From Tistrella mobilis (GTDB taxonomy: Bacteria > Pseudomonadota > Alphaproteobacteria > Tistrellales > Tistrellaceae), in contig NZ_CP121017.1 of assembly GCF_041468085.1 (NCBI RefSeq), forward strand, positions 3,351,676 to 3,415,675: 64,000 nucleotides of DNA, read 5' to 3'. Below are positions 7,385 through 23,205 of the stretch, piece by piece. Below the pieces are notes generated by a model. It saw nothing but the letters and a program-made list of their open reading frames with translations, did not search any database and was not told the origin of the DNA. Position numbers and translations under genes: made by a program. Each line of letters starts with the position of its first letter. The first letter of the stretch is position 1.

Positions 7385-8706
7385 GCGGCGGGGCCGATCC
7401 CCGCCGGGCGATCTTCGACGCCGCCGTGGCCGCCTGCGATCCGGGCCTCGTGCTGCCGGCCCATCTGCCCGATGCCCCGCCCCGTGGCCGGGTGGTGCTG
7501 CTGGCCTGCGGCAAGGCCGGCGCGGCGATGATCGCGGCCGCGGCCCGCCGGTATCGCGCAGCGGGGCTCCCCCCCGATCGCCTGCAGGGCCTGGCGGTGG
7601 TGCGCCATGGCTACGGCGCCCGCGACGACGACGGCCTGCCGCCCGGGATCGAGGTGGTGGAGGCCGGCCATCCGGTCCCGGACGAGGCCGGGCTTGCAGC
7701 CACCCGCCGGGTGCTGACGATGGCGGCGGCGGCACGCCCGGACGATCTGGTGCTGGCGCTGATCTCGGGCGGGGGGTCCGCCAACTGGGTGGCCCCCGCC
7801 CCGGGCGTCGACCTTGCGGAGAAACAGGCGCTGACCCGCGCCTTGCTCCGCTCAGGGGCCGATATCCACGAGATCAATGCGGTGCGCCGGCATCTTTCGG
7901 CGATCAAGGGCGGGCGGCTCGCCGGGCTGATCCGCGGCCGGCTGGAAAGCTTCGCCATCTCGGATGTGCCGGGCGACGACCCCGCCGCCATCGCCTCGGG
8001 CCCCACGGTCGCCGACCCGACCACCCTGGCGGATGCCCGCGCGGTGCTGGAGAGATATGATGTGCCCCCCTCTCCCGCCATCGCGCTCAGGCTGCGGGAT
8101 CCGGCTGCCGAGACGCCCAAACCGGGCGACCCGGCCGTCGACCGCCGCCCCTTCACCCTGCTCGCCCGACCCGCCGATGCCCTGGCTGCCGCCGCCGATG
8201 CCGCAGCCCGGGCCGGCTATCGTCCGGTTCTGCTGGGCAGCGATCTTGCCGGCGAGGCACGAGACGAGGGCACACGTCAGGCGTCCCTGGCCCTGGCGGC
8301 ACAGGCGGAAGGGCACCGGGTCGCGCTGATCTCGGGCGGGGAGCTTACGGTCACCCTCCGCGGCGACGGCCGGGGCGGCCCCAATCAGGAATTCGCCCTG
8401 GCGCTGGCGATTGCGCTGGGCGGCGCCCCGGGCATCCGGGCGCTGGCAGCCGATACCGACGGCACCGATGGCGGCGCGGGTGCCGCCAGCGATCCGGCCG
8501 GTGCGCTGGTCGACCCCGATACCCTGGCACGCGCCCGGGCCGCCGGAACCGATGCCCGCGCGGCCCTGCTGCGCAATGATTCGACCGGCTTCTTTCAGGC
8601 GGCGGGCGGGCTGTTCCACCCTGGCCCCACCCGCACCAATGTCAACGACCTGCGGGTGATCCTGGTCGACCCGCTGCCGCCCGCCGGCACATCAGTTCGC
8701 GCCTGA
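7381..8706 (+). CDS. Glycerate kinase, MOFRL/GckA-TtuD type
   Basis: 441-aa protein of the glycerate 2-kinase family with an N-terminal DUF4147-type domain and a C-terminal MOFRL domain. Marks are LLACGKAGAAM, LALISGGGSANWVAP, NAVRRHLSAIKGGRLA, the SGPTVADPTT loop, and GGPNQEFALALAIAL. It should phosphorylate D-glycerate (usually to 2-phosphoglycerate), feeding lower glycolysis. The last gene of the operon, it overlaps the oppositely oriented cyclase-like gene tail to tail by 15 bp. Confidence 0.92.
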   Translation: MSGGADPRRAIFDAAVAACDPGLVLPAHLPDAPPRGRVVLLACGKAGAAMIAAAARRYRAAGLPPDRLQGLAVVRHGYGARDDDGLPPGIEVVEAGHPVPDEAGLAATRRVLTMAAAARPDDLVLALISGGGSANWVAPAPGVDLAEKQALTRALLRSGADIHEINAVRRHLSAIKGGRLAGLIRGRLESFAISDVPGDDPAAIASGPTVADPTTLADARAVLERYDVPPSPAIALRLRDPAAETPKPGDPAVDRRPFTLLARPADALAAAADAAARAGYRPVLLGSDLAGEARDEGTRQASLALAAQAEGHRVALISGGELTVTLRGDGRGGPNQEFALALAIALGGAPGIRALAADTDGTDGGAGAASDPAGALVDPDTLARARAAGTDARAALLRNDSTGFFQAAGGLFHPGPTRTNVNDLRVILVDPLPPAGTSVRA

Positions 8707-10653
8707 AGCCCGCCGGATGAAATCGCCGACGGCGGTGCCGCGCAGCATCGCCAGACGATAGACAAACATCGCGTCGCGTTTGCGCAGATCCGTGGTCGCC
8801 ATATCGGCGTGCAGCCTTTTCAGCCGCTCGGTGTCGAGCATCTCGCAGGCCGCAGGCGACCGCAGAATGCCTTCGACCGTGCTGTCCAGCAGCTCCGGCT
8901 TTGCGGTGAGGGCTTCGTGCCAGTCCGGCGCCTGCAGGCCGCGGCGACGCTCCGCCAGTACCTCGCGCGGCAAACGGTCGGTCATGGCGCGCCGGGCGAG
9001 CGCACGCCCGCCACCATTCTCGACGAAGATCTCGTCCGGCACCCGCATCGCAAACTCGATCAGGCGGATGTCCGAGGTCGGATCCCGGCTGTCCAGCCCC
9101 CAGCCGGCCAGTACAGCCTTGTGGTAATTGCCGCCGTCGACACGACGCAAAACCCTGAGACGCAACTCGATGCTGTCGAGGCTGGGGCGATAGGAGAGGT
9201 CGAAACCAGCCCTCTTTGCCGCTTCGAAGGCCCGGGCCCGCCTGTCGGGATGCAGCAGAGAGATGGTGGCAAGGTCCATCTGCCGCCCGGCCAGCTTCAT
9301 CAGGCCGAGCCATGCCCAGGACGGCAGGGCCGGACCAATGGACTGCGCCAGCATGCCACGCCACCGCCACTGCCCGCCGGCGCGGACATGGCCGCGCGCC
9401 TCCTTGAACCAGCGCACGAAACGGCCGGACAGAAAGAGCTGGGGATAGAAGGTGTAGCCGTCATAGCTGAGGCTCATATTCCCCATCTGCCCCGACAACA
9501 CGACGCGGTGCCCCGCCTTTCGGGCCATGTCGTTGATCTGATTCATCCAGACATGATTGCAGGGGTTGAGGATCGGGCGATCCATGAACTGAAACCCCGT
9601 CCCCAGCATCTCTATCGGCGAGGTACCGTCGTTGACCACCCGGACATGGTCGACATTCGGATAAAGCCGGGCGGTCGCCGAAGCCAGCGGCCATTCATCG
9701 GCCATCCGGTCGCGATCCACGAACCGGTCGTCATAGCCGGGGCGGACCGTCGAGGTATAGGCCGTCACCCGGCCCGGCGCGATCAGACGCGCGGCCGTGG
9801 CGGTCACCGACGAACTGTCGAGACCCGAACTCAGATGGGTCGCCACCCGGTCGCCCGCACCTCTGAGCCGGCAGCGCACCGCCCGGTCCAGTTCAGTGCG
9901 CAGGGCCTCGGCATATTCGTCACGGCTGGACAGGCGGAGGAGCGGCGGCGCGGGGTTCCACCAGCCCTCGGCGCGGACGCCGCCGTCGGCCGTCACCACG
10001 GCGCGGTGGCCAGGCAGGAGGCGTTCGATGCCTTCGAAGAAGGAATTGGTCCCCAGTTCCGGCAGCAGGGCCAGGAAGCCGTTGAGCCGTTCCATATCGG
10101 GGGCCATGCGCAGCCAGGGCAGCGCCAGCAGGCCGCGGGGCATGGTCGCCACAGCAAAGAAGCGGCCGCCGCCGGGCAGGGTTCCCGCATGATAGTGCAG
10201 CGGCCGGGCGCCCAGATGGTCGCGGGCCATCAGCAGGCGGCGTTCACGGACGTCCCAGACCACAAAGGCGAAATCGCCGTAGAAATGATGGACGCAGTCC
10301 AGCTCCCAGCGTTCGAACGCCGCCATGGCCAGATCGGAATCGGCCATGGTCTTCAGCCGGTCGGCGCTGATGCCCAACTCCTGCGCCAGATCCTCGCGGT
10401 TGTCCAGGCGCAGATCGGCCACCATGACGAAGCGGCCGCCGGCGCCTTCCACCGGCTGGCGGTCGTAAATGTCTTCCGGCAGCGACGGGTTGAGCCGCAA
10501 CCCGATCGTGATCCGTTCATCGGCCCACCCCTGATCCGCTGCCCCGGGGCGGGCATGGGGAGTATAAATGGCCTGGGCAGCCAGCATCCGGGTGAGCGCG
10601 GCATCGCCCTCGGTGTTGCCATCGACCTGCCAGAAAGCAGCAAGCGCGGTCAT
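8692..10653 (-). CDS. Asparagine-synthetase-like protein, lasso-cyclase type (orphan)
   Basis: 653 aa with an N-terminal glutamine-amidotransferase-like domain (about 1-215) and a C-terminal ATP-dependent synthetase domain. The ATP-binding loop is SSGLDS at 275-280. The protein begins Met-Thr-Ala, so the Cys-2 nucleophile needed for glutaminase activity is absent. That is normal for lasso cyclases (McjC family) but not for true AsnB. The phrase VVLSGQMGNMSLSYDG resembles alphaproteobacterial lasso cyclases. GGAGGA lies before the start. No precursor, B1 or B2 gene adjoins it. It may act in trans with the RiPP operon at 15-22 kb or be a remnant of another cluster. Confidence 0.8.
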   Translation of the reverse strand: MTALAAFWQVDGNTEGDAALTRMLAAQAIYTPHARPGAADQGWADERITIGLRLNPSLPEDIYDRQPVEGAGGRFVMVADLRLDNREDLAQELGISADRLKTMADSDLAMAAFERWELDCVHHFYGDFAFVVWDVRERRLLMARDHLGARPLHYHAGTLPGGGRFFAVATMPRGLLALPWLRMAPDMERLNGFLALLPELGTNSFFEGIERLLPGHRAVVTADGGVRAEGWWNPAPPLLRLSSRDEYAEALRTELDRAVRCRLRGAGDRVATHLSSGLDSSSVTATAARLIAPGRVTAYTSTVRPGYDDRFVDRDRMADEWPLASATARLYPNVDHVRVVNDGTSPIEMLGTGFQFMDRPILNPCNHVWMNQINDMARKAGHRVVLSGQMGNMSLSYDGYTFYPQLFLSGRFVRWFKEARGHVRAGGQWRWRGMLAQSIGPALPSWAWLGLMKLAGRQMDLATISLLHPDRRARAFEAAKRAGFDLSYRPSLDSIELRLRVLRRVDGGNYHKAVLAGWGLDSRDPTSDIRLIEFAMRVPDEIFVENGGGRALARRAMTDRLPREVLAERRRGLQAPDWHEALTAKPELLDSTVEGILRSPAACEMLDTERLKRLHADMATTDLRKRDAMFVYRLAMLRGTAVGDFIRRASGAN

Positions 10654-14845: not shown

Positions 14846-15202
14846 ATGTCGCAACGCCTCCTCTTCCTGCGTCTTGCAACCGTCACGCGGCGCGACCGCC
14901 ATCTGGCGACGGATCAGGTCGCCGATGCCGTGGGGGCCGCCGGAGGCTGGATCGACGGCCACAACCAGTTCTCCAACAAGATGACCACGCTGCGCTTCAC
15001 GGTCCCCGCAGGCGGGCTGGAGCTGCTCCGCAGGCGGCTGGCCGATCTTAAACTCGCGCTGACCGACGAGACCGCGGCGGCGCTGGACGCGGCCATCGCC
15101 GCCGGCCACGCGCCCGAGCGCGAGGTCTCTGCCAGTTTCCAGCTGACCTTCATCCACGACGAACCGGATCTCAGGATCGACATTCCGGCCGTGCCGGGGT
15201 GA
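14846..15202 (+). CDS. Conserved-looking hypothetical protein, unknown function
   Basis: 118 aa with no signal peptide or membrane helix and no family I recognise. The pattern is an amphipathic alpha/beta protein: MSQRLLFLRLATV as first strand, GGWIDGHNQFSNKMTTLRF in the middle, and SFQLTFIHDEPDLRIDIP as C-terminal strands. This suggests a small ferredoxin-like fold. It is the only plus-strand gene here. It diverges from the nucleotide cyclase and meets the RiPP operon tail to tail, overlapping the Nif11-like gene by 32 bp. Confidence 0.65.
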   Translation: MSQRLLFLRLATVTRRDRHLATDQVADAVGAAGGWIDGHNQFSNKMTTLRFTVPAGGLELLRRRLADLKLALTDETAAALDAAIAAGHAPEREVSASFQLTFIHDEPDLRIDIPAVPG

Positions 15203-15404
15203 TCGCGGCCGCCATCTGCCGCATGCGCCGGTCGACGGCAAATGCCCGTACAAGATCTTCCCCGGTAAAGACCAGGCCGCAACCGGCGGCAAGCGCGATC
15301 AGATCGTCGAGGCACAGCGGTGCGGGCAGCGCCTCCAGGCGGCTGCGAAGTGCCGTTTCCTCACGGCACCGGCGCAGGAAGACCAGGGCGGCCTGGCGGC
15401 TCAT
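15171..15404 (-). CDS. Nif11-like domain protein in the RiPP operon
   Basis: 77 aa from an ATG that overlaps the P450 stop (ATGA). The pattern matches the Nif11 helical domain: ALVFLRRCREETALRSRLEA, then DDLIALAAGCGLVFTGEDL. Nif11 domains are known as leader regions of some RiPP precursors (N11P) and as stand-alone proteins. Here no double-glycine site and no Cys/Ser-rich core follows, since the protein ends soon after the domain. An accessory or vestigial leader role is more likely than a second precursor. It is the last gene of the operon. Confidence 0.7.
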   Translation of the reverse strand: MSRQAALVFLRRCREETALRSRLEALPAPLCLDDLIALAAGCGLVFTGEDLVRAFAVDRRMRQMAAAITPARPECRS

Positions 15405-16699
15405 CCCGATCTCCTCCCGGGCTGCCCCGACCAGGCAAGCGGCAGACTTTCCAGCCCGCGCACGGCATAGCAGCCGTTCCACCGGCCGGGCCCGGCAAGA
15501 TGCAGATCCGGGGCCATGGCGACGAGCGCGCCCACGGCAATCCGCGCCTGGGCCCGGGCAAGCATGGCCCCCGGGCAGGCATGCATCCCGGCACCGAATG
15601 CCATATGCCCCCGGGCACCGCCCGAGGTGATGTCGAACGGCCGTTCGGGTTCATGGCCGGCCGCGGCAATCACCAGCAGAACCCGGTCACCGGCGCGAAT
15701 GACCCGGCCGCCGATCTCCAGATCGGCAAGGGCCGTGCGGGTGACCACCTGTGCCGGCGGATCGACGCGCAACACCTCTTCGATCGCCCCGTCGATCAGC
15801 GACGGCCGCTCCCGCAGCAGAGCGAGCTGGTCCGGATGGCGCAGCAAGGTCAGCACCAGATTGCCGATCAGGGCTTCGGTGGTGGCGTGCCCCGCGAACA
15901 GCATCAGCGAAAGCTGGGCAATGGCCTCCTCCTCGCCCAGAACCCCGCGATGACGGGCGGCAGCCAGCCGGGACACCAGCGGCGGCAGACCGCGCGCCGG
16001 CTCCCCCTCTTCCGCAGCGCGCAGAAACAGCCGGCGGAAGCCCATATTCACCATCGACAGAGCGAACCAGCCCTCGGCCTCCCGCTCGGGCAGGGGATCG
16101 ACATCGGTCGCAGGTGCCGTGCGCCGGATGGCCGCCATCAGCGACGCCATCAGCCCCTCCGGTATGCCGATCAGGGCGGCGATCACCTGGGCCGGGAGGG
16201 GCCGGGCCAGATCGCGCATCAGATCGAAAGGCCCGGTGGCGGTCTTCAGCAGGCGGGCGGTCTCTGCCCGGATCAGCCTGTCGAGCGCATGGAGCGCGGC
16301 AGGCGACAGCGACTCCCGGACCAGGCCGCGCAGCCGGCCATGATCGGGGGCATTGCGTTTGGTGAACCACAGCATCGCAGACCGCCGCGCCGCCAGAATC
16401 GTGGCCGACATGCTGCCGCTGCCATCCAGTTCGGGGCCCGGCTCGCCATGGCCGAGCTCGGCCGCGCGCAGCAGCCGGGCGATGTCGGCCCGGCGGGTGA
16501 TCACCCAATCACCGCGCCCGGGCCGGCGCCAGACCGGATAATGATCGCGCAGCACGGCATATGTCGGATAGGGATCCGCCAGAAAGGCCGGGACACGAGG
16601 GTCGAAAGGGGCAACCCCCAGGGCCGCGAAATCCGGCTGCGGAGTCTGGGCATCAACGGCGGGGTCGGCCAGGGGAGAGGTCATCATGGCAGCTGACAT
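15401..16699 (-). CDS. Cytochrome P450, RiPP tailoring candidate
   Basis: 432-aa soluble bacterial P450. It has the I-helix AGHATTEALIGN (269-280), the K-helix ExxR in IEEVLRVDPP (residues 308-311), and the haem loop FGAGMHACPG with Cys375. Everything needed for activity is in place. The chosen ATG at 16699 overlaps the stop of the methyltransferase-fusion gene (TGATG), so it is translationally coupled into the operon. Oxidation of the peptide product (hydroxylation or cross-linking of Trp or Tyr) is inference from context. Confidence 0.92.
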   Translation of the reverse strand: MSAAMMTSPLADPAVDAQTPQPDFAALGVAPFDPRVPAFLADPYPTYAVLRDHYPVWRRPGRGDWVITRRADIARLLRAAELGHGEPGPELDGSGSMSATILAARRSAMLWFTKRNAPDHGRLRGLVRESLSPAALHALDRLIRAETARLLKTATGPFDLMRDLARPLPAQVIAALIGIPEGLMASLMAAIRRTAPATDVDPLPEREAEGWFALSMVNMGFRRLFLRAAEEGEPARGLPPLVSRLAAARHRGVLGEEEAIAQLSLMLFAGHATTEALIGNLVLTLLRHPDQLALLRERPSLIDGAIEEVLRVDPPAQVVTRTALADLEIGGRVIRAGDRVLLVIAAAGHEPERPFDITSGGARGHMAFGAGMHACPGAMLARAQARIAVGALVAMAPDLHLAGPGRWNGCYAVRGLESLPLAWSGQPGRRSG

Positions 16700-18540
16700 C
16701 ACGAACGCGCGTGGGGCTTCACCGCCCGTGCCTCGCCACAGAAAACCGGCGACGGCCCGGCGGCGTGATCCGGGAACAGATACAATCCGCCGAGACCGGT
16801 CGTCACCGGCACCGGCCCTGCCTCGTGGACATAGGCCCGCGTCCAGCGCCGTGTCGAGACCATCCCGGTGAGATCGGCCGTGCTCACTCCCTCGAACCCC
16901 GCCTGGCGGAGGGCTGCGGCGGTCTGCGAGAGGGTGCGTGTCCGATCCGCATTCACCCGGTCGAAGCGGTCGACGAACGCCCGCCCCCCGGCATCGAGCG
17001 TCTCCGCCGGCCGGGTGAAACAATCGCTGATATAGAGAATGCCGCCCGGGCGCAAGATCCGATGCATGGCGCGAAACAGGGCGGCGGGGTCGTCGGTGTG
17101 GTTCGAGCTTTCGAAGAAGACGACGGCATCGAAGAAGCCATCCGGCCAGGGGGGATGGTGATAATCCCCCGCCACCAGCCGGACCCGGTCGGACAGGCCG
17201 GCCCGCATGACGAGCCGCCGGCCAAGGGCTGCCTGATCGGGCATCAGGGTCAGCCCCCACACCTCTGCGCCGATGTCGCGGGCAAGATCCATTGCCGGCC
17301 CCCCGACGCCGCAGCCGGCATCCAGAACCCGCATCCCGGGTACCAGCCCGGCCCTCTGCGCCCAGGCGAGGTTCGATCGCCTGACATCCCCGTCGCTTCC
17401 CAGCTGATAGGCCCGGAATGTGGTGCCGAGGTGATGCAGATAGGCTGTCGTCATCTGCCGGAAATAGCGACGGGTCCTTTCCAGGATCGGCAGCCCGTCC
17501 GGCGTCTCCCAGTCGGAAGAGACCCGGGGCGGCAACCCTTCGCGCCCGTGCCCGAACCAGAGATATGCTTTGGCCGCCATCTGCCCCCCGGCATCGCGCG
17601 TGACCTTGATGTGGCTTATCCCCAGAGTGAGAACGCTCTGGCCGGCATCGGGCGCCAGCAGATCGGCACGGATCAACTCGGCAGGCCAGGGGATGTCGTC
17701 AGGCGAAAGGCGGCAGGGCCAGGCTTCCGCGGCGCTGCGCCGTTCCACATCGGCAAGCCCCAGAACGGTCGTCAGCGCCAGGGGGGGATGCGGCGGACGG
17801 GGGCCCGCGGCGCATTCAAAGCCGATCGCCGGCAGCACCCCCCGCTCCGGATCCAGATCCACGGTGAGGGTCATCCGGTCGGAGACGGCAAGAAGGGCGC
17901 GACCGAGCATTGCCGCCTCGGTCAGATCACCTGGCCAGCCGATCACCTCCAGGGTCGGGACAATCATGTCCGCCTGAAGCCGTTTGATGTTGAGCCGCAT
18001 GCCGCCGCCGGGACGGCCGAGCATCAGGCCCAGATGCGACGGAAAGGCACCGGGGACGGCCGCTCTCAAGGCCGTGACAAGCCGCATCAGACGGTCCGGT
18101 TGCCGTCCCGTCAACCGCGCCGCCACATCCCCCATCGCCGATGCCGGATCCTCGTCGGGCCTGGTCGGTGGAAAGCCCAGGAAGACCGAGGGCAGGAAGC
18201 CCCCCGGCACCGGATCGAACTCCAGCCAGATTTCGACAAGGGGCGTTGTGGTCCGCCAGTCGGCCAGCAGCCCGTCCAGGCGATCCGGCGTCGCCCCCGG
18301 GGGCGCCAGCTGGTGGAGAGCGGCCCGCAATGCCGGCTCCAGACGGGCTGCGAGACGATCCTCTCGCAGCAGGCAGAGTTGAAGATCCACCTGGCGCGAG
18401 GCGCCGGAAAGCCGGCATTCAAATCCGCCCGTCAGAATGGGCGGCAGGGCGCGCATCAACGCCCCGAGCCCGCCGACATCGCCGAGTACGGGAGAGATCC
18501 GGTGTGCGAGGGCGGGCAGGACGTCGATCGGCGGTGTCAT
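16699..18540 (-). CDS. Two-domain protein: unrecognised N-terminal domain plus SAM methyltransferase
   Basis: 613 aa. The C-terminal third is a class I SAM methyltransferase: motif I VLDAGCGVGGPAMDLA starts at residue 405, then EVWGLTLMPDQA, DAVVFFESSNHTDDP and RILRPGGILYISDCF. Its wording is close to small-molecule and sterol-type C/O-methylases. The first 370 residues belong to no family I can name. They show alternating strands and helices and a conserved-looking end (GISHIKVTRD, KAYLWFGH). An ABBA-type prenyltransferase fold is only a guess. It overlaps both neighbours by 1-4 bp, so it belongs to the RiPP operon. Confidence 0.8.
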   Translation of the reverse strand: MTPPIDVLPALAHRISPVLGDVGGLGALMRALPPILTGGFECRLSGASRQVDLQLCLLREDRLAARLEPALRAALHQLAPPGATPDRLDGLLADWRTTTPLVEIWLEFDPVPGGFLPSVFLGFPPTRPDEDPASAMGDVAARLTGRQPDRLMRLVTALRAAVPGAFPSHLGLMLGRPGGGMRLNIKRLQADMIVPTLEVIGWPGDLTEAAMLGRALLAVSDRMTLTVDLDPERGVLPAIGFECAAGPRPPHPPLALTTVLGLADVERRSAAEAWPCRLSPDDIPWPAELIRADLLAPDAGQSVLTLGISHIKVTRDAGGQMAAKAYLWFGHGREGLPPRVSSDWETPDGLPILERTRRYFRQMTTAYLHHLGTTFRAYQLGSDGDVRRSNLAWAQRAGLVPGMRVLDAGCGVGGPAMDLARDIGAEVWGLTLMPDQAALGRRLVMRAGLSDRVRLVAGDYHHPPWPDGFFDAVVFFESSNHTDDPAALFRAMHRILRPGGILYISDCFTRPAETLDAGGRAFVDRFDRVNADRTRTLSQTAAALRQAGFEGVSTADLTGMVSTRRWTRAYVHEAGPVPVTTGLGGLYLFPDHAAGPSPVFCGEARAVKPHARS

Positions 18541-19547
18541 GACGGCAAGGGACCACGAGCGAGATCACGGGTCGCCCCCAGCGCATCCCATCGATCCGGA
18601 CGTTCGAGGTACAGCACCGGCACCTCGCGCAGAATGCGGGCCAGACGACGAAACAGCGCGGCCCGTTCCCACGGACGTGGCGGCAGAAAGGCCGGGTGAA
18701 GCATCGCCTCCAGAGCCGGCAGCGCGGCCACCGGCGGAACGCGCCGCAAAGCCGGCGATCCGCTGCCGGTTCGCGGCCCGAGCAGCAGGATCCGCCCTAC
18801 CGGCAGGCTCCCTGCCCCGTCATAGACCGGGAATTCCGGAGAAACCACCCGCCGCTTGGGCGCAATCGACCAGACCCGGGGCAGCGAGACGGGGTCGAGG
18901 CCGAACTTGGCGAGCGTGTCGGGCAGCAGCCGCGGCCCGTCCTGACCGCGATGCACGCAAAACCCGCCCGGAGTTTCGTCGAGGATTGCCTGATCATCCG
19001 CAAGCACCGGACAACCATCTCGCGCAAACGCAGCCAGAAGGGTGGACTTGCCGGCACCGCTCGGCCCCGACATCAGGATCGCCTCGCCGCCGGACACCAC
19101 CGCGGCGGCATGCAGAGGCAATCGCCCCAGCCGACGCGCGACCAGGGCGAGCACCGGCCCGAGAAACAGGGAGGCGAGATCCTGCGGCAGCGTCCCGTCA
19201 TCAGGCTCCGCGATCCGTCCCGCCCAGAACAGCGTCACCGACGCCCCGTCCGGAGAGATCAGGCATTCCGCAGGCATCTCGTGACCGAAGCGGATCAACC
19301 AGGGACCGTCGGGGCCATCCTGGTCCGTCTCATAGACCACGACCCCGCGATCCTTCACGTCGTCATATGATGACGGTCGCGATACCGGACGCCAGTGCCG
19401 GGCGGTGCGCGACGGGAAGCCCTGGGGCGGAACCGCAGCGACACATTCAAGGGAGGTATGGGCGACCTCCGCGGCTCCGCCGTCGAGCCAGGGGAAGCTT
19501 CGCGTCGACGCCACCCCGATCCCCTGTATCCGTGTCAGGACCGTCAC
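18537..19547 (-). CDS. HPr-kinase-like (HprK) peptide kinase of the lasso cluster
   Basis: 336 aa, starting at a GTG that overlaps the B1 stop (GTGA). It has a P-loop GPSGAGKST at 161-169, preceded by LPLHAAAVVSGGEAILM, and the downstream acidic VLADDQAIL. This is the arrangement of HprK-related kinases found in paeninodin-type lasso clusters (PadeK, ThcoK), which phosphorylate the side chain of the C-terminal Ser. The precursor encoded two genes upstream ends in Ser, which agrees. HPr itself and PTS genes are absent here, so a carbon-regulation role is unlikely. Confidence 0.85.
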   Translation of the reverse strand: MTVLTRIQGIGVASTRSFPWLDGGAAEVAHTSLECVAAVPPQGFPSRTARHWRPVSRPSSYDDVKDRGVVVYETDQDGPDGPWLIRFGHEMPAECLISPDGASVTLFWAGRIAEPDDGTLPQDLASLFLGPVLALVARRLGRLPLHAAAVVSGGEAILMSGPSGAGKSTLLAAFARDGCPVLADDQAILDETPGGFCVHRGQDGPRLLPDTLAKFGLDPVSLPRVWSIAPKRRVVSPEFPVYDGAGSLPVGRILLLGPRTGSGSPALRRVPPVAALPALEAMLHPAFLPPRPWERAALFRRLARILREVPVLYLERPDRWDALGATRDLARGPLPS

Positions 19548-19816
19548 GCCCCGGTAACCGTCAGCACGCCGGCGGCGGCGAGTTCGTCAACGAGCTCCGC
19601 GATATCGTTTCGAAGCGTCTCCTCGCCGACCTCGTATTCCCCGAGGAGAACCGCCACGGCCCGGTTCAGATCACCATCTTCCTGGCACAGCTGCCACAGG
19701 CGCGCGCCCACGCCGTCGAGGGCGAGATATTCCCCCGATCGCACATCAAAAATGACGACCGTCTCGCCGATGATCTGGCAGAGTACATCGTCTGGTATGA
19801 CAACCCGTTTCCCCAT
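19544..19816 (-). CDS. PqqD-like RiPP recognition element (lasso B1)
   Basis: 90-aa PqqD/RRE-fold protein. VVIPDDVLCQIIGETVVIFD, SGEYLALDGVGARLWQL and LRNDIAELVDELAAAGVL match the three beta strands and helices. It binds the leader peptide and presents it to the processing enzymes. I place the start at ATG 19816 because the longer frame from 19921 would run through the precursor gene. GAGAAG stands a few bases before it. In most proteobacterial clusters of this class the next partner is the B2 peptidase. Here the following gene is the kinase. Confidence 0.88.
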   Translation of the reverse strand: MGKRVVIPDDVLCQIIGETVVIFDVRSGEYLALDGVGARLWQLCQEDGDLNRAVAVLLGEYEVGEETLRNDIAELVDELAAAGVLTVTGA

Positions 19817-19871
19817 CCGAGCTTCTCGATTAAGTCCCCGCGGCTCGTACGGAACCACGGGGAGATGCGCA

Positions 19872-20021
19872 TCAGGAGTCGTAAGCCGATCCGCTGAAGT
19901 CGCCGTCCCAGGTGGGGCCATTGGCGGGAGCGGACCGGGTCAGGTCGGAAACCGGCGCAAGCCGCTGGAGGACCGGCTTGCGATAGGTCTTTCTGGGGGA
20001 GATGGCAGTCACGTTCGACAT
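19872..20021 (-). CDS. Lasso-type RiPP precursor peptide
   Basis: 49 aa, starting 8 bp after the cyclase stop, with AGGAAGG immediately ahead of the ATG. The leader carries the Tyr-x-x-Pro-x-Leu-x-x-Leu pattern (YRKPVLQRLAP, residues 13-23), then VSDLT with Thr28, the kind of leader bound by B1 proteins. The C-terminal part is SAPANGPTWDGDFSGSAYDS. If Ala31 is residue 1, Asp39 is residue 9 and gives a standard 9-residue ring, as in paeninodin. If the usual Thr at -2 rule holds, residue 1 is Ser30 and the ring would need ten residues. It ends Tyr-Asp-Ser, the same three residues as paeninodin, fitting the adjacent kinase. Confidence 0.82.
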   Translation of the reverse strand: MSNVTAISPRKTYRKPVLQRLAPVSDLTRSAPANGPTWDGDFSGSAYDS

Positions 20022-20029
20022 CCTTCCTG

Positions 20030-21898
20030 TCAGTGGAGCTGTGGTATTCCCCGGCTCTGATCCGGTCTTTCCTGATCACCCGACCAGGGCTCCCGGATCG
20101 TCACGGGTCGGTGGAGCCGGTCGCGCCATTTCAGCCAGTAGGCCAGCTGCCACACGCGGCGGAACCGGGCAAAGCTGTAAAACGTCCATCGCTGCTGATC
20201 GTGCAGGTCACGGCGAAGAGCTGCGACATCGACGAACCCGCCAAGATCCGGTACATCGAGCAGCGCCTCCATCCAGCCCTGCAGGCCCCGTCGCCTGACG
20301 GCGATCGATCCCGGATCACCCCCGAGCGGGGTCTTGCGCCGGCGCAGGATCTCTGTCGGCAGCTGCCCCGCCAGTGCAACCCGCAGCAACATCTTTCCCG
20401 GATGCCACGGGCGTGCAGGTACCCTGGAAACGGCATCGATCACCCGCCTGTCAAAAAACGGATGCCGCACCCGCAACGGCAGGCCGGTCACGTCGGGATC
20501 TGCATGCTGGAAAATTTCCGGCCAGAGCGGCGCACGGGCCATGCCTGCCCGGCCACTGCTGTCGCCGTCGTCATACCAGCTGGCCAGCCGGTCGCTGACC
20601 CCGCCGGGTTCGACAAGCCAGCCCGGTGCCTCCAGCCGTGCCGGTGGCGTCTTCGGAGCCTGGCGCGGGAAGGGCCGAAGCGCAGGCCGCAGACCGGAAA
20701 TCCGCCAGCAGTGAAACGCATGCAGCGGAAAGGCGACCAGCGCTGCAAACGGCATGACGAAAGCCGTGTGGTGGTCGTCTGAAAACAGCGGATCTCCGCC
20801 ATAGCCGCAGAAGAAGACCCGGGAGTGCCTCGCGGCCCGAATGTAGATATGCCTGTCGGCGACTTGCCGCATGGCCTCACCAGGCTCCGGCGGCAACATG
20901 TCCGGTGGGTCGACGGGCGCGGTGAGCGGCAGATGATCCGTCGCAAGCACCTCGATGGGAATTTTCAGACGGGCGGCGACCTGACGCGCCAGCTGCCCCT
21001 CCTGATCAGGCAACAGTTCACGGAGTTCGGCCGTATAAGCCCTGAGCCCTTCCGTCCCCGTGACGGAAGCCAGTCGGGCAGCAATGCTTGTCGAGTCCAG
21101 CCCCCCGCTCAGAGACAGACCGGCTTGCGGCCAGCGTCGCCGGTCAGCGACCGCCTGGTCGAATGCCTGGCGGAAGGCATCCATCTGACGGCGTGGCGAG
21201 AACCGCACGCAGGGGCGCCCGTCGGGCTCGGGCTGCCAGTATCGCCGCAGAACGGTTCTGCCTGCCTCGCAGACCAACAGATGTCCGGGCGGGATCCTGT
21301 TGACGGATCGGTAGATCGTCGCGTCCGGGCGGCTGCGGGCCGGCAGGACAAGGAAATCCATCACCGCGGTGCGATCGAGCTGCCGATCGGCGCCAGGATG
21401 CGTGAGCATGCAGGAGAGGCTGTTGGAGACGAGCAGCGTATCGCCGATGGTTGCCGTGTAGAGCTGGGCGACACCATAGTGATCGCGTGCCGCAACAAGA
21501 CGTCGACGCGCCCCATCCCACAGGATGACGGCGAAGTCTCCGAAGATCCGGTCGAGGGCCGCCAGATCCCAGCAGGCAAAGGCCCGCAGCACCAGCGCCT
21601 CATCGCTCATTCCGGCATCGACCTGCATGCCGGCCGCGGTCAGAGCGTCAATCAGATCAGACCGGCCGTCCAGCCGGACATCGCCGGCAAGAATGAGAAC
21701 CCCCGACTGCTCCAGCCCGTCACCGGCAGCCGCTTCCTGCACGGATCTCAGAGACGCCCGCCCCAGCGCGACAGACCGATCAACGATCACCCTGTCCCCA
21801 TCCGGGGCACGGTAGCTCGTCGTCGCGAGCATCGCCCGGGCGAGCCGATGCGGCGCGGGCGCAGCATCAGGTGCCAGAAGAGCGAGAACGACGCTCAC
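20030..21898 (-). CDS. Lasso peptide cyclase (asparagine-synthetase homologue, C protein)
   Basis: 622 aa, GTG start. The N-terminal amidotransferase-like domain lacks Cys-2 (Met-Ser-Val-Val). The synthetase domain has SGGLDS at 264-269 and CGYGGDPLFSDDHHTAF. It should adenylate an Asp/Glu side chain of the core and close the macrolactam on the N-terminal amine. It is the first gene of the compact run cyclase, precursor, B1, kinase, methyltransferase, P450, Nif11. The order C-A-B1-K differs from the common A-first layout. No strong ribosome site is visible at the GTG, so expression of this gene may be low. Confidence 0.87.
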   Translation of the reverse strand: MSVVLALLAPDAAPAPHRLARAMLATTSYRAPDGDRVIVDRSVALGRASLRSVQEAAAGDGLEQSGVLILAGDVRLDGRSDLIDALTAAGMQVDAGMSDEALVLRAFACWDLAALDRIFGDFAVILWDGARRRLVAARDHYGVAQLYTATIGDTLLVSNSLSCMLTHPGADRQLDRTAVMDFLVLPARSRPDATIYRSVNRIPPGHLLVCEAGRTVLRRYWQPEPDGRPCVRFSPRRQMDAFRQAFDQAVADRRRWPQAGLSLSGGLDSTSIAARLASVTGTEGLRAYTAELRELLPDQEGQLARQVAARLKIPIEVLATDHLPLTAPVDPPDMLPPEPGEAMRQVADRHIYIRAARHSRVFFCGYGGDPLFSDDHHTAFVMPFAALVAFPLHAFHCWRISGLRPALRPFPRQAPKTPPARLEAPGWLVEPGGVSDRLASWYDDGDSSGRAGMARAPLWPEIFQHADPDVTGLPLRVRHPFFDRRVIDAVSRVPARPWHPGKMLLRVALAGQLPTEILRRRKTPLGGDPGSIAVRRRGLQGWMEALLDVPDLGGFVDVAALRRDLHDQQRWTFYSFARFRRVWQLAYWLKWRDRLHRPVTIREPWSGDQERPDQSRGIPQLH

Positions 21899-22207
21899 GA
21901 AGCGACGGCGAAGGAATTTCTTCCATCCCCCCTCGGCAACCAGCTGCCGTCCTGGCTCCCGATCTCTCGATCACGATCCATTTCTGCGTCACCATGTCCG
22001 CTGCCCCATCAGCGATCATGCAGAAAGAGACAATATTCAGTCAATTCCATTCAAATTTCAGGCATCCGAAATCCCCATCCAATATCGTCATCGGAGCATT
22101 ACCTCGAAGATAAACTACATCAAATTGAAAATCAGAAAGACAGCTGATCTATCATCAACCATAAATGTGTACATCGTCCTCAGAAATAATATATGAGTGC
22201 CCTGGAC
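21899..22207 (-). promoter_or_regulatory. AT-rich leader region of the lasso operon, no supported gene
   Basis: 309 bp between the 2OG oxygenase and the cyclase. From about 22020 to 22200 base composition falls far below the surroundings, with A/T-rich tracts such as AATATATGAG and ATAAATGTG. I read this as the promoter zone of the operon. Tiny minus-strand frames of 15-49 codons exist, but none resembles a leader peptide. No clear -35/-10 pair stands out. Confidence 0.45.
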
Positions 22208-22822
22208 TCAGCTCCACTCCGGCGTGCGCAGAAAGAAGCAGGTCAGATTGTACTTCACCCCGCGCACCGGCGGAGCGCCGCGGTGGAGATGGGTCCAGAA
22301 GGGCGGGAACAGGACAAGCAGGCCCCTGGTCGGCTTGATCGCGACCTGCTGATACGGGAATTCGGTGTGCCCGCCCTCTTCCACCGTGCGCAGATAGCAG
22401 AGCGCCGAAACGAAGCGGTCATAGGTATCGCGTGGGCCGGCATCGATATGCCAGCCGAAGCCCTGGCCGGGTTCGATCTTCTCGATGATCGGGACGCTCA
22501 TCCGATGATTGGCCGGGGCGGTCATCCGCAGCACGGACTGGTACTTCTCCGCATAGCTGCCGAGCGCCTTGTAGAGCGCCGCCTCCACCGGCGCCATCAG
22601 GTCGTCCCAATGCGGCCCTTCCATCGAGGACATCACGCCGCTGCGATTGGCGCTCTGGCCGGCCGCCGTACGGCTGGCAAAGCGACCCTCATCCTGTTCG
22701 AAACGCGCAATCAGCTGATCGCAGAGGGTATCCGGAAGAGCATGGGGAAAGGCATCGACGAAGGCCGGTTGGGGCGGCGGCGCCGGCCGGCTGCGTGGCG
22801 GGCGGTGGGTAGCGGGCATCAT
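22208..22822 (-). CDS. 2-oxoglutarate/Fe(II)-dependent oxygenase (prolyl-4-hydroxylase-like)
   Basis: 204 aa. The iron triad is His125-x-Asp127 in GWHIDAGPR and His178 or His180 in FWTHLHRGAP. Lys190 is placed to bind 2-oxoglutarate, and CYLRTVEEGGHTEFP fits the family. I chose ATG 22822 because GGAGGG lies 8 bp upstream. The N-terminal 20 residues are Pro/Arg-rich. It lies upstream of the cyclase on the same strand, 309 bp away. It may hydroxylate the RiPP (its core has two Pro and three Asp), or it may be an unrelated neighbour. Confidence 0.85.
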   Translation of the reverse strand: MMPATHRPPRSRPAPPPQPAFVDAFPHALPDTLCDQLIARFEQDEGRFASRTAAGQSANRSGVMSSMEGPHWDDLMAPVEAALYKALGSYAEKYQSVLRMTAPANHRMSVPIIEKIEPGQGFGWHIDAGPRDTYDRFVSALCYLRTVEEGGHTEFPYQQVAIKPTRGLLVLFPPFWTHLHRGAPPVRGVKYNLTCFFLRTPEWS

Positions 22823-23205
22823 TGGCACATCCCTCCACAGTCACCGGATGCTGCAGGAAGGTGGCGTGAACGGCACACGCCCACCTTCCTGCCGACACCC
22901 GGGGAACATGACAGTCGTCACAAATATATCCTTTTGAAGAGCAACCCCTTCTCTCGGACTCATGACTCAGAGTCCCGCTCTCTGTCTGAGATTTTCATCA
23001 CACCTTGAGTCTCTTTGCCGGATTTTCTGCCATGCAGGCAAAAATGTACATCGATCACACTTCATACATCCCAATCGCGGAAATAGGAGCCGCATGCCAT
23101 TCCGACCGAAGCACAAATCTGACCAAAAATTGAATATTTGAATCGATGATAAACTTATTGGGGAATATCCTGGTCGGTGCGAACGACATAACAGGACGAG
23201 CCGCC
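22823..23205. promoter_or_regulatory. Divergent, AT-rich intergenic region
   Basis: 383 bp between the 2OG oxygenase (minus) and the secreted haem-motif protein (plus). Composition is much lower in GC than the flanks (for example CAAAAATTGAATATTTGAA near 23122). It must hold promoters for both genes. An imperfect inverted repeat around 22973-23000 (CTCAGAG with CTGTCTGAG) could be an operator. I see no RNA gene or ORF here. Confidence 0.4.

Follow-up and report, generated by a model that had tools for sequence, protein, structure and literature searches.

A lasso-type peptide cluster of Tistrella mobilis with a fused prenyltransferase-fold/methyltransferase protein and a separate Nif11-like gene

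A seven-gene cluster for a lasso-type ribosomally synthesized and post-translationally modified peptide (RiPP) lies in the 64-kb stretch of Tistrella mobilis DNA analysed here (contig NZ_CP121017.1; the window, to whose positions the coordinates of the cluster refer). Open reading frame (ORF) coordinates and Pfam matches place on its minus strand a cyclase (C), a 49-residue precursor (A), a leader-binding protein (B1), a kinase (K), a two-domain fusion, a cytochrome P450 and a Nif11-like protein, the same run that an earlier note on this DNA had reported. The note described the fifth gene as a methyltransferase fusion; the methyltransferase half is real, but residues 1–345, which the note overlooked, are by their predicted structure an ABBA-fold prenyltransferase, the activity being presumed from the fold. 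Since the N-terminal half of the fusion is of this kind, the main decoration of the product is probably a prenyl or terpenoid chain. On balance, the cluster seems to make a phosphorylated, prenylated and methylated lasso-type peptide that is oxidised by the P450; for this product we infer every chemical step, the acceptor, the order of events and the threaded shape.

C (20030–21898), an asparagine-synthetase-like macrolactam cyclase of lasso type (PF00733, 94 bits; GATase_7, 49 bits), has an intact SGGLDS loop and 622 residues counted from a GTG codon, the true start being uncertain. It is separated by 8 bp from A (19872–20021), which is followed after 55 bp by the PqqD-like B1 [19544–19816, a RiPP recognition element (RRE); PF05402, 60.4 bits, over the cut-off]. 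From B1 downstream the genes overlap by 4, 4, 1 and 4 bp (B1/K, K/fusion, fusion/P450 and P450/Nif11-like), as the earlier note had it (1–4 bp); these are K (18537–19547), the fusion gene (16699–18540), the P450 (15401–16699, 432 aa; PF00067, 58.7 bits) and the Nif11-like gene (15171–15404, 77 aa; PF07862, 25.5 bits). The P450 carries the motifs AGHAT, EVLR and FGAGMHACPG (haem motif intact). No reading frame is interrupted and the catalytic motifs are intact; the gene set is far above chance, with Pfam cut-offs passed by PF00733, GATase_7, PqqD, Methyltransf_11 (70 bits), p450 and Nif11. The leader of A (Y-x-x-P-x-L...L-T-R) contains the YxxPxL motif with Thr at position −2, and the predicted core, SAPANGPTWDGDFSGSAYDS, ends in Ser. 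By family models K is weakly HprK-like (HprK_rel_A, 1e-9, and like the other named HprK models below its cut-off), yet it keeps the His, the P-loop Lys and the Asp-Asp pair (LHAAAV...GPSGAGKS...ADD). A review gives lasso kinases a His-Lys-Asp-Asp motif (PMC9266682), and K is predicted to phosphorylate the C-terminal Ser of A. C, A, B1, K and the kinase motif support the earlier note's view that this is a lasso-type RiPP operon whose kinase resembles that of paeninodin, and we agree that the set of tailoring enzymes is unusual.

The prenyltransferase domain (fusion residues 1–345; 17506–18540) escapes sequence searches. It has no Pfam match up to E 10 and no meaningful match in the PDB by sequence, and no NCBIfam prenyltransferase stands among the best 25 of 40 families for the fusion. 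Its AlphaFold2 model (built from 16 sequences; pLDDT 84.2, pTM 0.85) consists of five alpha-beta-beta-alpha repeats, in which helix pairs alternate with strand pairs. All 50 of the Foldseek matches listed for this model are prenyltransferases (the first is 1zb6, 2e-8), and structure comparison identifies MpnD [Z 18.9, 295 residues, 4.0 Å], CymD (18.4), PriB (18.1), TleC (16.6) and PatF (15.8) as neighbours. Ten positions are invariant in the 16 prenyltransferase sequences, including R176, R182, H310, K312, K324 and Y326. With no Pfam match for the domain, clusters of this kind are easily misread as plain methyltransferase or squalene-cyclase clusters.

The same genome encodes a second such prenyltransferase, fused to a different domain (locus L049), and a two-sequence profile made from the pair seeded a search of other genomes. 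The domain is rare: matches occur in at least 15 of 385 alphaproteobacterial genomes and in at least two of the 398 genomes of a phylum sample, this genome being counted in both (lower bounds, as only the best four or five candidates of most genomes were scored). There are 23 match places: the window, L049 and 21 more, which were retrieved in 19 regions. The counts below omit L079 (genome G001), with fragments only, and L080, L087 and L090, where the domain has no assigned gene. The domain is found in eight RiPP-type clusters, two of them in this genome (the window cluster and L049), one in a Rhodospirillales metagenome-assembled genome (L073), four in genome G096 (L074–L077) and one in G002 (L078). 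G096 is a single alphaproteobacterial genome that holds four clusters of this prenyltransferase type.

In six of the eight clusters (L049, L073, L074, L075, L077 and L078) the prenyltransferase is fused to a squalene-cyclase-like domain. That of L049 matches MstE (2e-25); the Pfam cut-off for SQHop_cyclase_C is exceeded in L073 and L075 and missed in L074, L077 and L078, whose domains are assigned by similarity to L049. The L076 protein has no second enzyme, and the window alone has a fused methyltransferase. L049 (5804–10901) comprises B1, a precursor ending AAYQS, K, the prenyltransferase–MstE-like fusion, a Nif11-like protein and an amidohydrolase, with no local C. A lasso-type precursor, a B1-like gene and a K-like gene are present in all eight clusters (the kinase P-loop of L075 is altered to GDKSMGKS). 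A lasso-type cyclase lies within the fetched region in three (window, L073 and L078) and in none of the other five, and the leader peptidase B2 in two (L073 and L075). The earlier note had named the occurrence of the tailoring genes without lasso genes as a finding that would speak against a lasso operon; five clusters do lack a lasso cyclase in their region, while precursor, B1-like and K-like genes are kept throughout. A candidate for C in L076 was rejected, being an N-acetylglutaminylglutamine amidotransferase at 975 bits.

Further relatives stand apart from these clusters. L081–L091 are alphaproteobacterial stand-alone ABBA-domain proteins, mostly of about 350–380 aa, with no reference RiPP genes nearby. 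On the Acaryochloris plasmid pMB07 (L098, 8439–10059) a prenyltransferase is followed by a methyltransferase in an interrupted frame, and genes for a Nif11 precursor and a RiPP radical SAM C-methyltransferase lie nearby. The prenyltransferase tree is too poorly resolved to place the two prenyl/methyl fusions as sisters. A tblastn search of plasmids with the prenyltransferase–cyclase fusion gave no match. A first profile scan of genome contigs found none and a second found three loci, among which L105 (Archangium) had no gene assigned to the domain.

The Nif11-like protein of the window has no GG site and no recognisable core, and scores 25.0 bits with TIGR03798 (cut-off 32.3). It was considered as a second precursor and rejected; no core or cleavage site is visible by eye, and the last codons of its ORF (15171–15202) lie inside a conserved gene on the opposite strand (14846–15202), where the island described below has its border. 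A four-sequence profile finds a separate Nif11-like ORF in seven of the eight prenyltransferase clusters (L073, 2.6e-7; L075, 6e-6; L078, 7e-8); it also gives a chance-level match in L047 (E 0.13) and one in L076 in an ORF far from the prenyltransferase (E 0.0038). In L076, the eighth cluster, the module is a C-terminal extension of the prenyltransferase itself, scoring 13.4 bits with a seven-sequence profile, while the best of 1000 shuffles reaches 10.5 (hhalign gives E 1.5e-5 and a probability of 79). The seven-sequence profile has no match at E ≤ 1 among the 3395 ORFs of 24 loci without the prenyltransferase. These control loci are four lasso-type loci of this genome (L044–L047) and 20 regions around B2 genes, some of them with B2 as their sole lasso gene (e.g. 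L133, L139, L143, L151 and L152). L160 (3309–9111) sets a stand-alone member of the prenyltransferase family beside LanM and a lanthipeptide precursor with a Nif11 leader, and in L103 a member adjoins an NHLP-type gene. The lanthipeptide prenyltransferase MppC requires its Nif11-like leader (PMC12715784). Because the protein is conserved with the prenyltransferase, because of the LanM/Nif11 neighbour and because MppC needs such a leader, the coreless Nif11-like protein is best read, by association, as a former leader that has turned into a partner of the prenyltransferase.

The precursors point to a candidate acceptor for the prenyl group. A Tyr stands within the last four residues in seven of the eight precursors that accompany the prenyltransferase and in none of 13 lasso-type precursors that do not (L134, L135, L137, two from L141, L142, L145, L147, L150 and L044–L047). 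K is present in 13 of the 20 B2 regions, eight of which supplied control precursors; no precursor was found in L136, L138, L140 or L149, and L144 (B2, B1, sulfotransferase, K and C) has a candidate that ends in Val without Tyr and is uncounted. The window core has the only Trp within the last 20 residues across the eight prenyltransferase-cluster precursors. Judged from these sequences, the Tyr beside the C-terminus would be the most likely acceptor and the single Trp the next.

Put together, the pathway would run as follows. B1 would bind the YxxPxL leader of A and K would phosphorylate the C-terminal Ser of the core; the ABBA domain, aided in trans by the leader-like Nif11-like protein, would attach an isoprenoid to the core (at the Tyr near the C-terminus or, second, at the Trp). 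The methyl group from the fused methyltransferase may then go to either the peptide or the prenyl chain, and oxidation of the product would fall to the P450. A B2 encoded elsewhere would remove the leader, and C would close the ring on Asp10 (Asp9 if cleavage falls one residue later). The masses calculated for the predicted core are 1982.79 as the lactam, 2062.76 with phosphate added, and 2050.85 (C5), 2118.92 (C10), 2186.98 (C15) or 2255.04 (C20) for the lactam with a prenyl group, a methyl adding 14.016 to each; with the later cleavage the lactam would be 1895.76.

Several observations weigh against this reading. The acceptor Asp is core residue 10 under the Thr(−2) rule (residue 9 with cleavage one residue later), where the usual range is 7–9, so the ring would have 10 residues. 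Both C and the leader score under curated cut-offs (the best NCBIfam match of C, the lasso cyclase NF033535, gives 177.6 bits against 525, and lasso_leader_L3 gives 16 bits against 19), B2 is missing locally, and the Nif11-like extension of L076 was missed by Pfam. The methyltransferase domain resembles O-, N- and C-methyltransferases alike. The L077 precursor has neither a Tyr near its end nor an Asp at positions 8–10, and the Fisher value for the Tyr (1.0e-4; 7/8 against 0/12 Ser-ending controls, L142 being omitted as its precursor is not Ser-ending) comes from control precursors that are not independent, three of them belonging to two genomes of one genus. Paeninodin, which is not known to involve a prenyltransferase, ends in HYDS; a Tyr near the end is therefore not specific.

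The second half of the fusion (residues 346–613; 16699–17505) is a class I S-adenosylmethionine (SAM)-dependent methyltransferase (Methyltransf_11, 70 bits). Its PDB relatives by sequence mix O-methyltransferases with terpene C-methyltransferases [MitM, 1.5e-22; BezA, 5.8e-19; TleD, 6e-13; also a geranyl pyrophosphate (GPP) C-methyltransferase], and the neighbours of its model (pLDDT 79) are RebM (Z 25.8), the GPP methyltransferase (24.8), TleD (24.7) and MitM (24.4). With neighbours so mixed, an attempt to read the methyl target from sequence or fold failed; a prenyl carbon appears somewhat less probable than an atom of the peptide or another atom. In teleocidin B biosynthesis, methylation by TleD starts terpene cyclisation (PMC8159823). 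NctPC, in which an ABBA prenyltransferase and an MstE-like class II terpene cyclase form one protein, geranylgeranylates Trp and then cyclises the chain (PMC13290415). The fusion in the window might combine a prenyltransferase with a methyl-triggered terpene cyclase acting on a ribosomal lasso peptide: SAM methylation of the isoprenoid would set off a carbocation cyclisation, taking the part that a proton-started cyclase domain plays in NctPC relatives, and the enzyme would be steered in trans by the coreless Nif11-like ex-leader. We regard this version as unlikely.

Of the alternatives, the one that fares best keeps the prenyltransferase as proposed but has the fused domain methylate the peptide itself, at a carboxyl, hydroxyl or phosphate group, as a common O- or N-methyltransferase would; AgeMTPT, the fused methyl- and prenyltransferase of linear cyanobactins, reportedly works in this way. 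The best sequence and fold matches, which include the O-methyltransferases MitM, AtmM and RebM unseparated from TleD or BezA, fit it. Cluster L074 encodes a separate methyltransferase as well as a prenyl/cyclase fusion, so that methylation does not have to stand in for cyclisation. On the other side, the prenyltransferase has a fused enzyme partner in seven clusters, and in six of these the partner is terpene-cyclase-like; the fused position thus suggests action on the prenyl chain. Weighing these, we give the ordinary methyltransferase a nearly even chance.

The cluster occupies a genomic island of 7.0 kb (15203–22213, with the left edge at 15203 or 15209 depending on the genome compared) that is absent from both other sampled Tistrella genomes; by sequence, the present genome is 87% identical to a T. 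mobilis plasmid over 88% of the query. In those two genomes, a 2OG-Fe oxygenase (22208–22828) lies beside the conserved gene 14846–15202, with 20 or 33 bp between the aligned flanks. Absence of the island between near-adjacent flanks in both genomes marks it as variable and excludes the oxygenase, which belongs to the genus backbone and is rejected as a cluster member; the hydroxylation of the core that the earlier note had ascribed to this enzyme is consequently dropped. No tRNA adjoins the island, and the look for a dedicated promoter gave one promoter-like site against 0.7 expected, too few to show one.

B2 is absent from the cluster and was not found elsewhere in the window. The genome has a single stand-alone B2 (contig C1; L002, 14838–15452, minus strand), and none beside its other lasso-type C genes. 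Each of the three sampled Tistrella genomes has one stand-alone B2 (L002, L151 and L152), and the 15-kb regions around it in the other two contain no C or B1. Six lasso-cyclase-like genes occur in this genome, all below the curated cut-off: that of the cluster, one at window positions 8692–10653 (minus strand; 653 aa, NF033535 283 bits), which has no recognisable precursor, B1 or K as a neighbour, and one in each of L044–L047. In L044 an asparagine synthase model outscores the lasso cyclase model. Among these four loci, L046 has a sulfotransferase (matched more weakly in L044 and L047) and a kinase whose motif His is replaced by Gln, and L044 has a 2OG oxygenase; B2 was seen in none of them and B1 was not seen in L045, and K is missing from the fetched regions of L044, L045 and L047. 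The simplest reading of these gene sets is that B2 would be supplied in trans from the stand-alone gene.

The missing B2 also admits an incomplete or decaying island that yields no product, and its absence from both other sampled species and the mere fragments of an L049-type gene in G001 would agree with this. With the frames open, the motifs intact and one stand-alone B2 kept in all three Tistrella genomes, we consider such decay improbable; moreover, a paper on pseudomycoidin reportedly announces in its title a synthesis that needs neither leader nor leader peptidase.

Slightly less probable still is the version of the earlier note, a phosphorylated, methylated and P450-oxidised lasso peptide with no prenyl group, in which the N-terminal domain of the fusion merely assists the methyltransferase. 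It draws on the lack of a Pfam, NCBIfam or PDB sequence match for that domain among the matches listed, and is opposed by the confident ABBA fold, the conserved residues resembling a donor site and the occurrence of this domain joined to an MstE-like cyclase. It is very improbable that the peptide genes are mere neighbours and that prenyltransferase, methyltransferase and P450 have a substrate other than a peptide: nine of the 12 regions L080–L091 (those with an assigned gene) are stand-alone with no reference B1, K, C or Nif11-like match nearby, but here the reading frames overlap B1 and K, and all eight clusters have a lasso-type precursor.

The preferred reading, a phosphorylated, prenylated and methylated lasso-type peptide, would bring together in alphaproteobacterial RiPP clusters phosphorylated lasso-type leaders, peptide terpenoid enzymes and Nif11 leader recognition, which have so far been studied separately. 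Should it hold, the fusion could be used to ask whether methylation can initiate terpene cyclisation when the substrate is a ribosomal peptide, and the Nif11-like protein would be a leader that naturally works in trans with a peptide prenyltransferase, with uses in engineering. Several lasso-type operons might then also share a single B2 peptidase.

Among known systems, paeninodin-type clusters share C, A, B1, K, the His-Lys-Asp-Asp motif and the C-terminal Ser with the window, which differs in having no B2 in the cluster, Asp10 instead of 7–9 and additional prenyltransferase–methyltransferase, P450 and Nif11-like genes. Prenylated lasso peptides are reportedly the subject of Harris 2024 and, in 2025, of a collinodin paper whose title is said to name oxidative and prenylation modifications. 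Lasso peptide and prenylation are shared with these; the descriptions consulted mention no fused methyltransferase, kinase or Nif11-like partner. With NctPC-type systems (Hubrich 2024, as described in PMC13290415), the window fusion shares an N-terminal ABBA domain within a RiPP cluster, and L049 has the full prenyltransferase–cyclase architecture; the window has a methyltransferase instead of the cyclase, plus lasso C, B1 and kinase, in a comparison made by architecture and not directly by sequence. For MppC, the published description makes a Nif11-like module the handle by which this peptide prenyltransferase works, and L160 offers a counterpart, with the present family represented next to LanM and a precursor of Nif11 type; in the lasso-type clusters, unlike in MppC (compared by description only), the Nif11-like module is a separate coreless gene. 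Teleocidin biosynthesis has the same trio of activities on a peptide-derived core (P450 TleB, ABBA prenyltransferase TleC and methyltransferase TleD; PMC8159823), and TleC and TleD are among our fold matches; there the substrate is made by TleA and is no ribosomal precursor, and the enzymes are separate; TleD-like chemistry in the window fusion is hypothetical. No description of the cluster was found among the papers listed by searches of the open-licence PMC literature; it, or other Tistrella or alphaproteobacterial clusters, may already be listed in Hubrich 2024 or Harris 2024. RiPP prenylation, prenyl/cyclase fusions, prenylated lasso peptides and phosphorylated lasso peptides are known already; a prenyl/methyl-transferase fusion that occurs alongside lasso and kinase genes, with the Nif11-like partner encoded separately, appears, as far as these searches show, to be new.

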